The notes under the pieces are model-generated. The model was not told the origin of the DNA and searched no databases. It worked only from the letters and a program-made list of their open reading frames with translations. A DNA stretch of 64,000 nt from Hydrogenophaga sp. (GTDB taxonomy: Bacteria; Pseudomonadota; Gammaproteobacteria; Burkholderiales; Burkholderiaceae_C): assembly GCF_019635465.1 (NCBI RefSeq), contig NZ_JAHBZK010000003.1, forward strand, positions 124,001 to 188,000, given 5' to 3'. The stretch's first letter is position 1. Each line of letters starts with the position of its first letter. The translations under genes and the position numbers were made by a program. Positions 3,112-26,403 of the stretch are shown in pieces.

Positions 3112-3638
3112 AGCGGGTGCTCCGCGTAGAAGCGCCCACCGTGAAACAGCAGTGGCGAGGCGTCCGCGCGGTGCGAGCAGCGCTCCACCTCGCCCACGAA
3201 GATCACGTGATCGCCCTCGGTGTACTGGCTGCGGTTGAAGCATTCGAACACCGCGGCTGCGCCCTGCAGGACCGGCGCGCCGTTGACGCCTTCGGTGTGC
3301 GGCACGCCGACCCAGCGATCGACGCCCCGCGCCGCAAAGCGTTCGGCCAGTGCCTGCTGATCGGCCGCGAGCACGTTGATGGCGTAGTGCAGGCCATTCT
3401 GGAAAGCCGCCATCGACCCCGCCTGGTGCGCCAGGCTCCACAGCACCAGCGGCGGCGACAGCGACACCGAGTTGAACGAATTGGCCGTGAGGCCCACCAG
3501 TGTCCCTTCGGCTGTGCGCGCGGTGACCACGGTCACGCCCGTGGCGAACATGCCCAGCGAGGCACGGAACTCCTGCGCCGAGAAATCGGGGGGGCGGGCC
3601 GAATGGCCGGACAGACGGGCAGGCGACATGGGCTGCAA
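3108..3638 (-). CDS. Flavin reductase family protein
   Basis: The 176-residue product carries the flavin-reductase-like split-barrel signature: FATGVTVVTA, GLTANSFNSVSLSPPLVLWSL, a late DHVIFVGEVE and a terminal LLFHGGRFY. HpaC/ActVB-type members reduce FMN or FAD with NAD(P)H and hand the reduced flavin to a partner monooxygenase. It is the first gene of a coupled pair with the MarR gene and is divergent from nicX, so its likely partner is the acyl-CoA-dehydrogenase-fold protein at 5591-6856; that pairing is an inference. An internal ATG three codons later (3629) is an equally possible start. Confidence 0.87.
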   Translation of the reverse strand: MQPMSPARLSGHSARPPDFSAQEFRASLGMFATGVTVVTARTAEGTLVGLTANSFNSVSLSPPLVLWSLAHQAGSMAAFQNGLHYAINVLAADQQALAERFAARGVDRWVGVPHTEGVNGAPVLQGAAAVFECFNRSQYTEGDHVIFVGEVERCSHRADASPLLFHGGRFYAEHPL

Positions 3639-3705: not shown

Positions 3706-4755
3706 ATGCTGCAGGAGCGGATCGAACCCGCCTGGATCGACGCATTCGACACGCTGTTGCGCCGCTGCGATCTACAGGCCGGCGACACGGTGGCGATTCT
3801 GGCCGAAACGCAGAGCCGGCCCGTGCTGGTCGAGCTGGCCCGCCTGGCCGCAGCGCGCCTGGGCGCCCGCTGCTTCGAGCTGGTCCTGCCCTCGGTGTTC
3901 AGCACCGACGCGCCGGTGCAGCGCTCAACCGGCGCCTGCACCGCCATCCAGCAGCTGCAACCGGTGATCACCGCACTGGCCGGCTGCCAGCTGGTGGTCG
4001 ATTGCACGGTCGAAGGCCTGATGCACGCGCCCGAGCTGCCGGCCATCCTCAAGGGCAATGGGCAAACCCAGCCGCGTGTGGTCTACGTCAGCAACGAACA
4101 CCCCGAGGCGTTGATGCGATTGCAGCCCGACGACGCCACCGAAGCGCGCGTCAAGGCGCATGTGAAACGCCTGCGCTCGGCCAGCGCCATGCACGTGCGC
4201 TCCGCCGCCGGCACCGACCTGCACATCGACCTGCGCGGCGCCGTGGTGGGCGGCAACTGGGGCAGCACCACGCGCCCCGGCACGCTCACGCACTGGCCCG
4301 GCGGTCTGGTGCTGGGCTTTCCCGCCGGCGGCACCGTCAACGGCACGCTGGTGCTGGCCGAAGGCGACGTCAACCTGACCTTCAAGCGCTACATCGAGCG
4401 GCCGATCACGCTCACCATCGAGCGCGATGTGGTGACCCGTATCGACGGCCAGGGCGTGGACGCCGATCTGCTGCGCCACCACTACGCCGCCTGGAGCGAG
4501 CCCGAGGCCTACGCGGTGAGCCACGTGGGCTACGGCCTGAACGAACACGCGCGCTGGGACAGCATGGCCCTGTACGACAAGCGCGACTTCAACGGCACCG
4601 AGCTGCGCGCGTTCGCCGGCAACTTTCTCTACAGCACCGGCGCCAACGAGGTCGCGGGCCGGCACACGCGCGGGCATTTCGACTTCCCCCTGCGGGGCTG
4701 CACCGTGACGCTCGACGGAGCGGTGGTTGTCGACGCCGGCAAGGTGGTGGCATGA
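3706..4755 (+). CDS. nicX: 2,5-dihydroxypyridine 5,6-dioxygenase (NicX-like)
   Basis: The 349-residue protein matches the NicX/PicD family in length and motifs: a LHVRSAAGTDLHIDLRG-type segment, HWPGG, SHVGYGLN followed by RWDSMALYDKRD, GNFLYSTGANEVAG and GHFDFPLRGC. In the Pseudomonas putida enzyme the Fe(II) is held by two histidines and an aspartate; H273, H324 and D326 here occupy the same motif positions. The enzyme opens 2,5-dihydroxypyridine to N-formylmaleamate in the cytoplasm. The ATG at 3706 follows a CGAGGAG ribosome site; the in-frame ATG at 3661 lies in the operator region. The stop overlaps the nicD start (ATGA), so the two are coupled. Confidence 0.88.
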   Translation: MLQERIEPAWIDAFDTLLRRCDLQAGDTVAILAETQSRPVLVELARLAAARLGARCFELVLPSVFSTDAPVQRSTGACTAIQQLQPVITALAGCQLVVDCTVEGLMHAPELPAILKGNGQTQPRVVYVSNEHPEALMRLQPDDATEARVKAHVKRLRSASAMHVRSAAGTDLHIDLRGAVVGGNWGSTTRPGTLTHWPGGLVLGFPAGGTVNGTLVLAEGDVNLTFKRYIERPITLTIERDVVTRIDGQGVDADLLRHHYAAWSEPEAYAVSHVGYGLNEHARWDSMALYDKRDFNGTELRAFAGNFLYSTGANEVAGRHTRGHFDFPLRGCTVTLDGAVVVDAGKVVA

Positions 4756-24154: not shown

Positions 24155-25228
24155 ATGGATTCCACCGCCACCTACACCCGCGCCCAGGCCCTGCCGGCCA
24201 TCCTCGAGCAACGCATCGCCATCCTCGATGGCGCCATGGGCACGATGATCCAGCGCTTCAAGCTCGGCGAGGCGCAATACCGCGGCGAGGGCTATGCGGG
24301 CCCCGGCGCGGTGGGTGACCGGTTCAAGGATTTTCCCAAGGACGTCAAGGGCAACAACGAGCTGCTCAGCCTCACCCGTCCCGACGTCATTGCCAGCATC
24401 CACGAGGGCTACCTCGCCGCCGGCGCCGACCTGATCGAGACCAACACCTTCGGCGCCACCACCATCGCCCAGGCCGACTACGACATGGCGCACCTGGCGC
24501 GCGAGATGAACCTGGCCTCGGCCCGCCTGGCGCGCGCCGCCTGCGACAAGTTTTCCACCCCCGACAAACCGCGCTTCGTGGCCGGTGCCCTGGGCCCCAC
24601 GCCCAAGACCGCCAGCATCAGCCCCGACGTGAACGACGCCGGTGCGCGCAACGTCACCTTCGACGAGCTGCGCGCCGCCTACCGCGAACAGGTCGAGGCG
24701 CTGATCGAAGGCGGCGCCGACGTGCTGCTGGTCGAGACCATCTTCGACACGCTCAACGCCAAGGCGGCGCTGTTTGCCATCGACGAGGTGTTCGAGGCCA
24801 CCGGTGAACGCCTGCCGCTCATCATCAGCGGTACCGTCACCGACGCCTCCGGGCGCATCCTCAGCGGCCAGACCGTGAGCGCCTTCTGGGCCAGCGTGCG
24901 CCATCTCAAACCCATGGCCGTCGGCTTGAACTGCGCGCTGGGTGCGGCGCTCATGCGCCCCTACATCCAGGAGCTGGCCAAGGTCGCGGGCGACACCTTC
25001 ATCAGCTGCTATCCCAACGCCGGCCTGCCCAACCCCATGAGCGAGACCGGCTTCGACGAAACGCCCGAGGTCACCAGCCGCCTGCTGCACGAGTTCGCGG
25101 CCGAGGGGCTGGTCAACATCGTCGGCGGCTGCTGCGGCACCACGCCCGACCACATCGCCGCCATCGAGCGCAGCGTGTCGCCGCTGGCGCCGCGCCACCG
25201 CGGCGCCTTTTACCGCGAAGCCGCCTGA
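24155..25228 (+). CDS. metH: Methionine synthase, homocysteine-binding domain only (split MetH)
   Basis: The 357-residue product equals only the first module of cobalamin-dependent Met[43 protein letters not shown] and the zinc-binding cysteines in GLNCALG and GGCCGTT. The pterin, cobalamin and activation modules are absent, and the frame ends with a normal stop (FYREAA). In Burkholderiales MetH is often encoded by two genes, usually next to each other; here the next gene is terC, so the partner half must be elsewhere. The protein would transfer methyl groups to homocysteine only together with that partner. Divergent from the rhodanese gene. Confidence 0.9.
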
Positions 25229-25278
25229 AAAACCGACACCGGCCCGGGTCATTGCCGGGTCGGTGACAATCGCGCTTC

Positions 25279-25424
25279 CCTTCAAGGGGAGTAGTCGGCC
25301 CGCCACCCTGCTTGCAGCAAGGCCTCGGCGGCGCGGCGTTCTCGTCAATTCGTGCCCGGTGGCAACGCCGGTCGCCGGGAACGTCCAGCCACCCAGCGGG
25401 TGGCGGCGGCAAGACCTTGGGGTG
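25279..25424 (+). promoter_or_regulatory. yybP-ykoY (manganese) riboswitch
   Basis: The 224-bp leader before terC carries the conserved blocks of the yybP-ykoY aptamer in order: AAGGGGAGTAG (25285-25294), CGTCAATTCGT (25343-25353) and GGCAAGACCTTGGGG (25408-25422), separated by GC-rich arms that can pair. P1 is formed by CAAGG (25283-25287) with CCTTG (25415-25419). The 3' strand of the aptamer (AGACCTTGG, 25412-25420) can instead pair with CCGAGGTCT (25441-25449), which covers the ribosome site of terC, so metal binding would free translation. The family and its Mn2+ ligand are known; the switch drawn here is my inference from complementarity. Confidence 0.85.
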
Positions 25425-25452
25425 TTTGTTCAACACCAAACCGAGGTCTTTC

Positions 25453-26403
25453 ATGCAAAGCATTGCCCCACTGTGGCTGTGGCTGGTCTTCGTCGCGTTC
25501 GTCCTGGCCGCCCTGTTCGTCGATTTCGTGCTGCTGCGCAAGCAGGGCGCCCACACCGTGGGTGTCAAAGAGGCGCTCAACTGGTCCATGGTCTGGATCG
25601 CGCTCAGCTTCCTGTTCAACGGCCTGCTCTGGTGGGCCATCAAGGACAGCACCGGCTCCACCGCGCTGGCCAATGAGAAGTCGCTGGAGTTCCTCACCGG
25701 CTACCTGATCGAGAAGAGCCTGGCGGTCGACAACATCTTTGTCTTCCTGCTGATCTTCAGCTACTTCGCGGTGCCGCCGGCGTACCAGAAGCGGGTGCTC
25801 ATGATCGGCATCCTGGGCGCCATCGTGCTGCGCACGGTGATGATCCTGCTGGGTGGCTGGCTGCTGGCGCAGTTCCACTGGATCCTTTATGTGTTTGGCG
25901 GCTTCCTGGTGCTCACCGGCATCAAGATGTGGTGGGCCGCCGGGCAGGAGCCCAGCCTGGACGACAACCCCGCGCTCAAGCTGCTGCGCCGCCTCATGCC
26001 GGTGAGCGAGCGCTACGACGGCGAACGCTTCTTCACGATTGCGAACGGCAAGCGCATCGCCACGCCCTTGCTGATGGTGATCGCGCTGATCGGCGTCACC
26101 GACGTGATCTTCGCGGTCGACTCCATTCCGGCGATCTTCGCCATCACGCGCGACCCCTTCATCGTGCTCACCAGCAACGTCTTCGCCATCCTGGGCCTGC
26201 GCGCGATGTTCTTTCTGCTGCAAGCGGTGGCGGGCAAGTTCCACCTGCTCAACTACGGTCTGGCCGTCATCCTGGTGTTCATCGGCACCAAGATGATGCT
26301 GATCGACGTGTTCAAGATCCCGGTGGCGGTGTCGCTGGGGGTGGTGGTGGGCATCCTGGCCATCACCATGGTCTGGAGCGCAAAGACCGCACCGAACGCA
26401 TGA
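25453..26403 (+). CDS. terC: TerC/Alx-family membrane protein, probable Mn2+ exporter
   Basis: The 316-residue protein has about nine membrane segments and the TerC hallmarks: LFVDFVLLRKQGAHTVGVKEALNWS at the start, EKSLAVDNIFVFLLIFSYFAVP and TDVIFAVDSIPAIFAIT, with the conserved acidic residues inside the membrane. Length fits Alx (about 320). The start at 25453 follows GAGGTCTTTC; upstream in-frame starts lie in the leader RNA. Alx and related proteins are linked to manganese export and pH or tellurite tolerance, and the yybP-ykoY leader in front strongly supports manganese homeostasis here. Confidence 0.9.
   Translation: MQSIAPLWLWLVFVAFVLAALFVDFVLLRKQGAHTVGVKEALNWSMVWIALSFLFNGLLWWAIKDSTGSTALANEKSLEFLTGYLIEKSLAVDNIFVFLLIFSYFAVPPAYQKRVLMIGILGAIVLRTVMILLGGWLLAQFHWILYVFGGFLVLTGIKMWWAAGQEPSLDDNPALKLLRRLMPVSERYDGERFFTIANGKRIATPLLMVIALIGVTDVIFAVDSIPAIFAITRDPFIVLTSNVFAILGLRAMFFLLQAVAGKFHLLNYGLAVILVFIGTKMMLIDVFKIPVAVSLGVVVGILAITMVWSAKTAPNA

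Follow-up and report, generated by a model that had tools for sequence, protein, structure and literature searches.

Evidence for a yybP-ykoY manganese riboswitch with a ribosome-site switch in the leader of an Alx-type terC gene of Hydrogenophaga sp.

The leader of a terC gene in Hydrogenophaga sp. raises the question of whether the RNA itself controls production of a metal-homeostasis protein and, if so, by which ligand and through which alternative structures. The window, i.e., the whole 64 kb stretch of DNA that was analyzed, carries terC at 25453..26403 on the + strand, on which all leader features described below also lie. The gene encodes a 316-aa protein of the Alx-type TerC family (PF03741, 171.3 bits; TIGR03718 R_switched_Alx, 'TerC/Alx family metal homeostasis membrane protein', 401.9 bits vs. 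a cut-off of 246.4), which places the leader directly before a Mn-homeostasis gene of the TerC/Alx type. The leader is very probably an alx/TerC-kind yybP-ykoY Mn2+ riboswitch whose platform acts on translation in the ON direction and whose choice of state is made during transcription. The Mn2+-riboswitch identity and a mutually exclusive translational switch are supported by computation: the aptamer has homologues, P1, P3 and the switch helix covary, the two pairings exclude each other, and the gene context agrees.

The first-pass annotation had read three conserved yybP-ykoY blocks, in order, in the terC leader, and this reading is confirmed. The L1 box GGGGAGTAG (25286..25294), L3 CGTCAATTCG (25343..25352) and the third block GGCAAGACC (25408-25416) are all present in that order, and the three blocks at this spacing are found at one place in the window and in 0/100 shuffles. 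At the RNA level the class features are the ordered L1 (GGGGAGUAG), L3 (CGUCA, with an invariant A) and GCAAGACC blocks, and the GCAAGACC box (25409..25416) joins the aptamer to the platform. In an aptamer-only fold, the P1 5' strand CTTCAAGG (RNA CUUCAAGG; 25280..25287) forms eight pairs, two of them U-G, with the strand CCTTGGGG (RNA CCUUGGGG; 25415..25422), the P1 3' strand of the ON state. P3.1 joins CGTTC (25337..25341) to GAACG (25379..25383), a pairing found by the fold, by covariation and by the covariance model, and the helix of the P3.2 hairpin (25352..25375) covaries in relatives. Two further arms, P4 and P2, would make up the rest of the four-way junction. The P4 hairpin GCCACCCAGCGGGTGGC (25388..25404) is stable against shuffles in the window (2/200) and reaches ≤10/200 in 11 of 28 leaders. 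The P2 arm, placed approximately at 25298..25334, is present in the minimum free energy (MFE) structure of 25270-25475; it is no more stable than shuffles in the window (95/200 equally stable) and reaches ≤10/200 in 15 of the 28 leaders.

In folding energy, the full 191-nt leader lies 4.3 standard deviations under its own shuffles, 0/200 of which are as stable; the aptamer-only MFE favours another long-range pairing by 1.8 kcal/mol (-72.9 vs. -71.1). A naive leader MFE that pairs P2 with P4 across the aptamer was rejected because L040, from the same genus, keeps the P2 strand and has a different P4. In the full-length MFE, the P1 5' strand and the L1 box sit in a small hairpin (25274-25281/25285-25292) instead of P1. 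This hairpin pairs GCUUCCCU with AGGGGAGU, involves CUUCCC before the L1 box and appears in both full-length folds; as modelled, it would hide L1 and add to the OFF state.

Homology to experimentally known members was assessed across the family. TerC was sought in 120 family genomes, of which 55 matched (own included), and 30 loci were read; the motif was found in 28 of these 30 leaders including the window's own, i.e., in 27/29 relatives. L046 and L050 were the two leaders lacking the full motif; two of its three blocks are visible by eye in L050. With the window and L040 excluded, the remaining 26 leaders were used to train a covariance model, R1, which scored the window at 50.8 bits, L040 at 54.4 bits and the leader of a gdt1 gene in the same genome at 28.9 bits. 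R1 also found E. coli alx (27.2 bits, E 4.8e-5 by rough calibration), so that one model recovers both the window and a known member; it gave no match on E. coli mntP. Across the 3.9 Mb genome, R1 returned three clear matches (50.8, 41.2 and 28.9 bits) with the next at 13.7, for 150 of 5015 first-look candidates scored. At least one R1 match was present in 33/40 genomes of the genus, own included. Parsing of 20 of 30 genus loci placed 14 before Alx-type and six before YjbE-type terC; the ten left out of parsing had no GCAAGACC-type box at the place examined. When the leader was used as a query for DNA similarity, no plasmid matched; relatives yielded mainly short, dispersed pieces, and the one longer piece that could be placed lies inside the terC leader of G002.

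Covariation of P1, P3.1 and P3.2 was tested on a MAFFT alignment of 26 leaders that was not fitted to the structure. Paired cells made up 86.9% vs. 70.6% in shuffles, cells changed on both sides numbered 109 vs. 42.3, and the covariation score was 0.500 vs. 0.207, each at 0/500 shuffles. Slid partners paired in only 33.7-50.9% of cells. Four of five measures stood at 0/500 in total, and the number of pairs with a change on both sides (14 vs. 12.4 shuffled, 83/500) was not above shuffles. P1 thus covaries in 26 relatives, and in a swap test over 28 leaders the own P1 strands beat swapped ones (0/5000); the window's P1 duplex ranks 5th of 28 partners, and 1st for its variable half.

A match to the Rfam model RF00080 had been proposed as a check on class membership, with its absence counting as a refutation. 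None was obtained above threshold, though the E. coli class members also fail. In the Rfam copy used (177 positions, cut-off 45 bits), RF00080 had no match in the window and none in 25220-25480 even at E ≤ 10; E. coli alx likewise gave no match at E ≤ 10, and E. coli mntP reached 41.6 bits, below the cut-off. At the gathering threshold RF00080 recovered 0/22 terC loci of the family (the window's own, L040 and 20 further relatives), and it matches the gdt1 leader elsewhere in the same genome at 96.3 bits. A match of 47.7 bits has been reported for H. seropedicae mntP (PMC7011215). RF00080 seems to favour mntP-like members. Because E. coli alx and mntP also fall short, the silence of RF00080 on the terC leader is uninformative and refutes nothing, and the model was rejected as arbiter of class membership. 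RF03067, the terC RNA motif, was rejected as the identity of this leader: it had no match there at E ≤ 10, and its best match in the genome was 17 bits, on another contig, against a cut-off of 39.9 (150 of 1500 first-look candidates scored). Weak cross-family matches (insect flavivirus xrRNA at 21 bits, Scr3202, mir-1908, CRISPR-DR20) lay far under their cut-offs and were taken as chance.

The aptamer is followed by a compact platform. The strand AGACCTTGG (25412-25420) had been described as a P1 strand complementary over nine pairs, one of them G-U, to CCGAGGTCT (25441-25449) at the ribosome site. The nine pairs hold, whereas AGACCTTGG as a whole is not the P1 strand: P1 proper is 25280-25287/25415-25422, and only CCTTGG (25415-25420) is common to P1 and the switch helix. 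In full, the switch helix comprises ten pairs between 25411..25420 (AAGACCUUGG), its 5' strand in the OFF state, and 25441..25450 (CCGAGGUCUU), as indicated by folds, duplex energy and covariation. The proposed mutual exclusion of P1 and the ribosome-site helix is supported, since both use 25415-25420. The OFF hairpin encloses an inner stem-loop (25421..25437) of six pairs, 25421-25426 with 25432-25437 (GGUGUU/AACACC), of which four show both-sides changes. The 3' strand of the switch helix contains and covers the Shine-Dalgarno sequence GAGG (25443-25446), six bases upstream of the ATG at 25453. In the unconstrained leader GAGG has an unpaired probability of 0.0, which rises to 0.13-0.30 once P3.1 and five pairs of P1 are enforced.

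At -22.3 kcal/mol, the duplex of the window's switch strand with the 30 bases before the ATG ranks first among 28 partners, and 0/300 shuffles equal it. In a swap test over 28 leaders, swapped partners were as good as the own ones in 0/5000; shuffled (1352/5000) and P2-region (2219/5000) controls were neutral, and the coding-sequence control was also low (16/5000), so part of this signal is base composition. A strong switch duplex (≤3/300 shuffles) was present in only 10/28 leaders, and in 8/14 of the Alx-type leaders of the genus. Swap tests restricted to the genus were weak (99/5000 for the switch, 560/5000 for P1), as expected from the likeness of its leaders. Covariation of the switch helix and inner stem was tested within a selected set, A3, of 22 leaders picked for an apparently compact platform (13 distinct genus leaders, window included, and nine of the family). 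There the covariation score was 0.212 vs. 0.144 shuffled (0/500), both-sides changes occurred in 6/16 pairs (11/500 shuffles), and 86.1% of cells were paired against ≤57.7% for slid partners; one pair was seen as G-C, G-U, U-A and C-G. In L060 and L061, GTCTTGC at or beside the ribosome site pairs with GCAAGAC itself; this different pairing indicates a conserved aptamer combined with a changing platform. Promoter and terminator scans returned nothing in the window's terC leader, and no intrinsic terminator was called.

The metal site can be traced by comparison with solved structures. The L. lactis aptamer binds Mn2+ through the phosphates of G9, U39, C40, U44 and C45 and through N7 of A41 (PMC9190785). 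By letters and spacing, these correspond to G25289 in the L1 box and to U25345, C25346, U25350, C25351 and A25347 in L3, respectively, so that the window's L1 and L3 letters fit the contact list for the solved L. lactis yoaB and X. oryzae aptamers (PMC9190785). The G25289 column is G in 28/28 rows of leader alignment A1, the A25347 column is A in 28/28 leaders, and the U25350 column is A in 26/28 and U in two, including the window. The L. lactis yoaB and X. oryzae riboswitches are described as acting on transcription termination (PMC9190785, PMC6754395), whereas the window has a ribosome-site hairpin and no called terminator. The E. coli alx leader shares an Alx-type TerC gene, the L1 and L3 blocks, a GAGACCUUG block and translational control; it differs in its arms, in a longer platform and in an established pH response.

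From homologues we infer Mn2+ as the ligand and induction by Mn2+ in the ON direction; from the stability of the OFF hairpin, a co-transcriptional choice. In the X. oryzae aptamer, Mn2+ stabilises P1.1 but no longer does so once the sensing A has been altered (PMC6754395); applied here, this behaviour means that Mn2+ should hold P1, free GAGG (25443-25446) and turn terC on. At low Mn2+, the strand AAGACCUUGG would leave P1 and pair with CCGAGGUCUU, burying the terC ribosome site. At high Mn2+, the ion would dock L1 on L3 and P1 (CUUCAAGG/CCUUGGGG) would be stabilised, freeing the ribosome site so that TerC would be made. The choice between the ON and OFF states would fall during transcription, because the finished OFF hairpin would be too stable for one ion to reopen; enforcing P3.1 and five pairs of P1 costs 18.4 kcal/mol relative to the unconstrained leader (-80.4 vs. 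-98.8). A choice during transcription has also been described for E. coli alx, with pausing-dependent folding, an alkaline pH response and translational control (PMC3874183), and Mn activates reporters of both E. coli mntP and alx (PMC9603457).

Three other explanations were weighed. That a GC-rich leader merely resembles the class by chance is exceedingly improbable: the RF00080 result and the tendency of this GC-rich leader to fold several ways would fit it, but the absence of the pattern from shuffles, the hold-out R1 match and the motif in the relatives run against it, and the covariation of P1/P3 and of the switch helix argues strongly against it. Somewhat unlikely is an arrangement in which the leader is a yybP-ykoY aptamer whose main control is Rho-dependent termination within the leader, the ribosome-site hairpin serving as trigger and not as endpoint. 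Rho also controls E. coli mntP, which belongs to the translational members (PMC11647493), and the lack of a called intrinsic terminator in the window leader agrees with such control; against it, covariation supports the ribosome-site helix in its own right. Termination of this kind is compatible with the translational switch, and the probabilities of the two overlap; by analogy with mntP, Rho may also be involved at the window's terC (PMC11647493).

It is distinctly unlikely that the aptamer senses another cue besides or instead of Mn2+, such as alkaline pH or another divalent metal; in its 'as well as' form this overlaps with the Mn2+ riboswitch that we favour. E. coli alx responds to alkaline pH through pausing-dependent folding (PMC3874183) and to pH and Mn2+ together (PMC9603457), and most leaders carry A at the position of L. 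lactis U44. The window, however, has U there, a position contacted through phosphate (PMC9190785), and retains the Mn-site letters of L. lactis; moreover, the other two matches of the genome precede gdt1 (PF01169) and a YjbE-type terC (PF03741, TIGR03717).

As to the protein, Mn export by the window's TerC is likely by analogy, and it may extend to delivery: deletion of a riboswitch-linked terC raises cell Mn in V. parahaemolyticus (PMC13274385), and metalation of exported enzymes is a further role of B. subtilis MeeF and MeeY (PMC10550928). Among solved structures, no relative of TerC was found by sequence at E ≤ 0.01. The gene just upstream of the leader (24155-25228) encodes a homocysteine methyltransferase domain that corresponds to the initial part of methionine synthase MetH, and the next gene on its strand is terC, not the remainder of MetH.

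The genome carries three copies of the class, before terC, a YjbE-type terC and gdt1, which predicts a three-gene Mn regulon in this bacterium. The third copy (G000:C1:181210-181361; L187:1501-1652) precedes the YjbE-type terC (TIGR03717, 221.3 bits vs. a cut-off of 134.8; PF03741, 159). The gdt1 copy (L001:1501-1680, G000:C6; downstream gene PF01169) belongs to the same class by RF00080 and R1 but differs from the terC leader in its L3, GTCAACA as in E. coli mntP, and in its platform, where a long stem leads into a U-rich stretch, partly paired in the fold, which the scanner did not call a terminator. A literature search found nothing on yybP-ykoY with Comamonadaceae. RF00080 misses the alx/TerC form, both in the family's terC loci and in E. 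coli alx, and annotation by Rfam only therefore probably under-counts Mn regulons in this group. The window leader is a solid further member of a known riboswitch class, biologically expected, with an unusually readable translational platform, and it offers a clean case of predicted Mn-controlled translation. It is useful mainly as a caution on a single Rfam model and for testing how platforms turn over. More tentatively, the TerC/Alx Mn riboswitches of the family could form a subtype outside RF00080 in which the aptamer is kept, the platform is repeatedly replaced and the decision is one-way during transcription. The platforms concerned would be the P1-invading compact hairpin of the window's genus, GCAAGAC-grabbing helices in some relatives and another in the gdt1 copy; the OFF hairpin would not be reopenable by the metal ion, hence a one-way decision.

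To assess the wider distribution, a pattern scan was run on an 84,980-species collection; it found at least 120 stretches, with 80 named loci among the matches listed. By best tblastn, the downstream gene at these 80 listed loci was of the TerC family in 59 (36 YjbE-type, 16 Alx-type, seven other), HtpX in six, GDT1 in two, a Na/Ca exchanger in two, OAD-beta in one and unclassified in ten. One locus counted as HtpX (L112, Megamonas) has the order riboswitch, YjbE-type terC, htpX, which changes the counts among the 80 to 60 for the TerC family and five for HtpX. R1 matched 23/23 loci tried from the 80, which is no independent test: judged by length, the contig of L108 is that of training row L035, and the blocks used to find the loci are shared with R1.

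Aptamers directly before htpX, encoding a membrane metalloprotease, were seen at L075, L084, L089, L120 and L136 (R1 41-53 bits), and htpX-linked aptamers occur in Geobacter-like, Desulfuromonas and Nitrospirae contigs. The downstream products at L075 and L089 are M48/HtpX by HMM; at L116, the aptamer precedes a partial htpX, assigned by eye only and with no Pfam match. In B. subtilis, TerC proteins and HtpX are purified together (PMC10550928), and a literature search that reached this paper and PMC5816637 turned up no report of a link between a Mn riboswitch and htpX. L075, from the MAG Mn-Nitrospirae-1, carries two successive aptamers (3432-3550 and 4559-4662), before htpX and a P-type cation ATPase (PF00689, PF00122). 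In a Methylibium MAG, an aptamer (L132:2413-2539, R1 51.4 bits) has as its nearest ORF one of 103 aa, exported/EF-hand-like by eye and with no Pfam match, and in a Geobacter MAG the gene downstream of another (L121:4574-4690, R1 52.5 bits) is unclassified. Among relatives of the window, one has a tandem terC pair (G117:C17:150892-151836 and 152417-153361) whose products are 83% and 76% identical to the window protein, and another carries an SAH riboswitch (RF01057, 54.6 bits) downstream of terC (L053:3143-3237).
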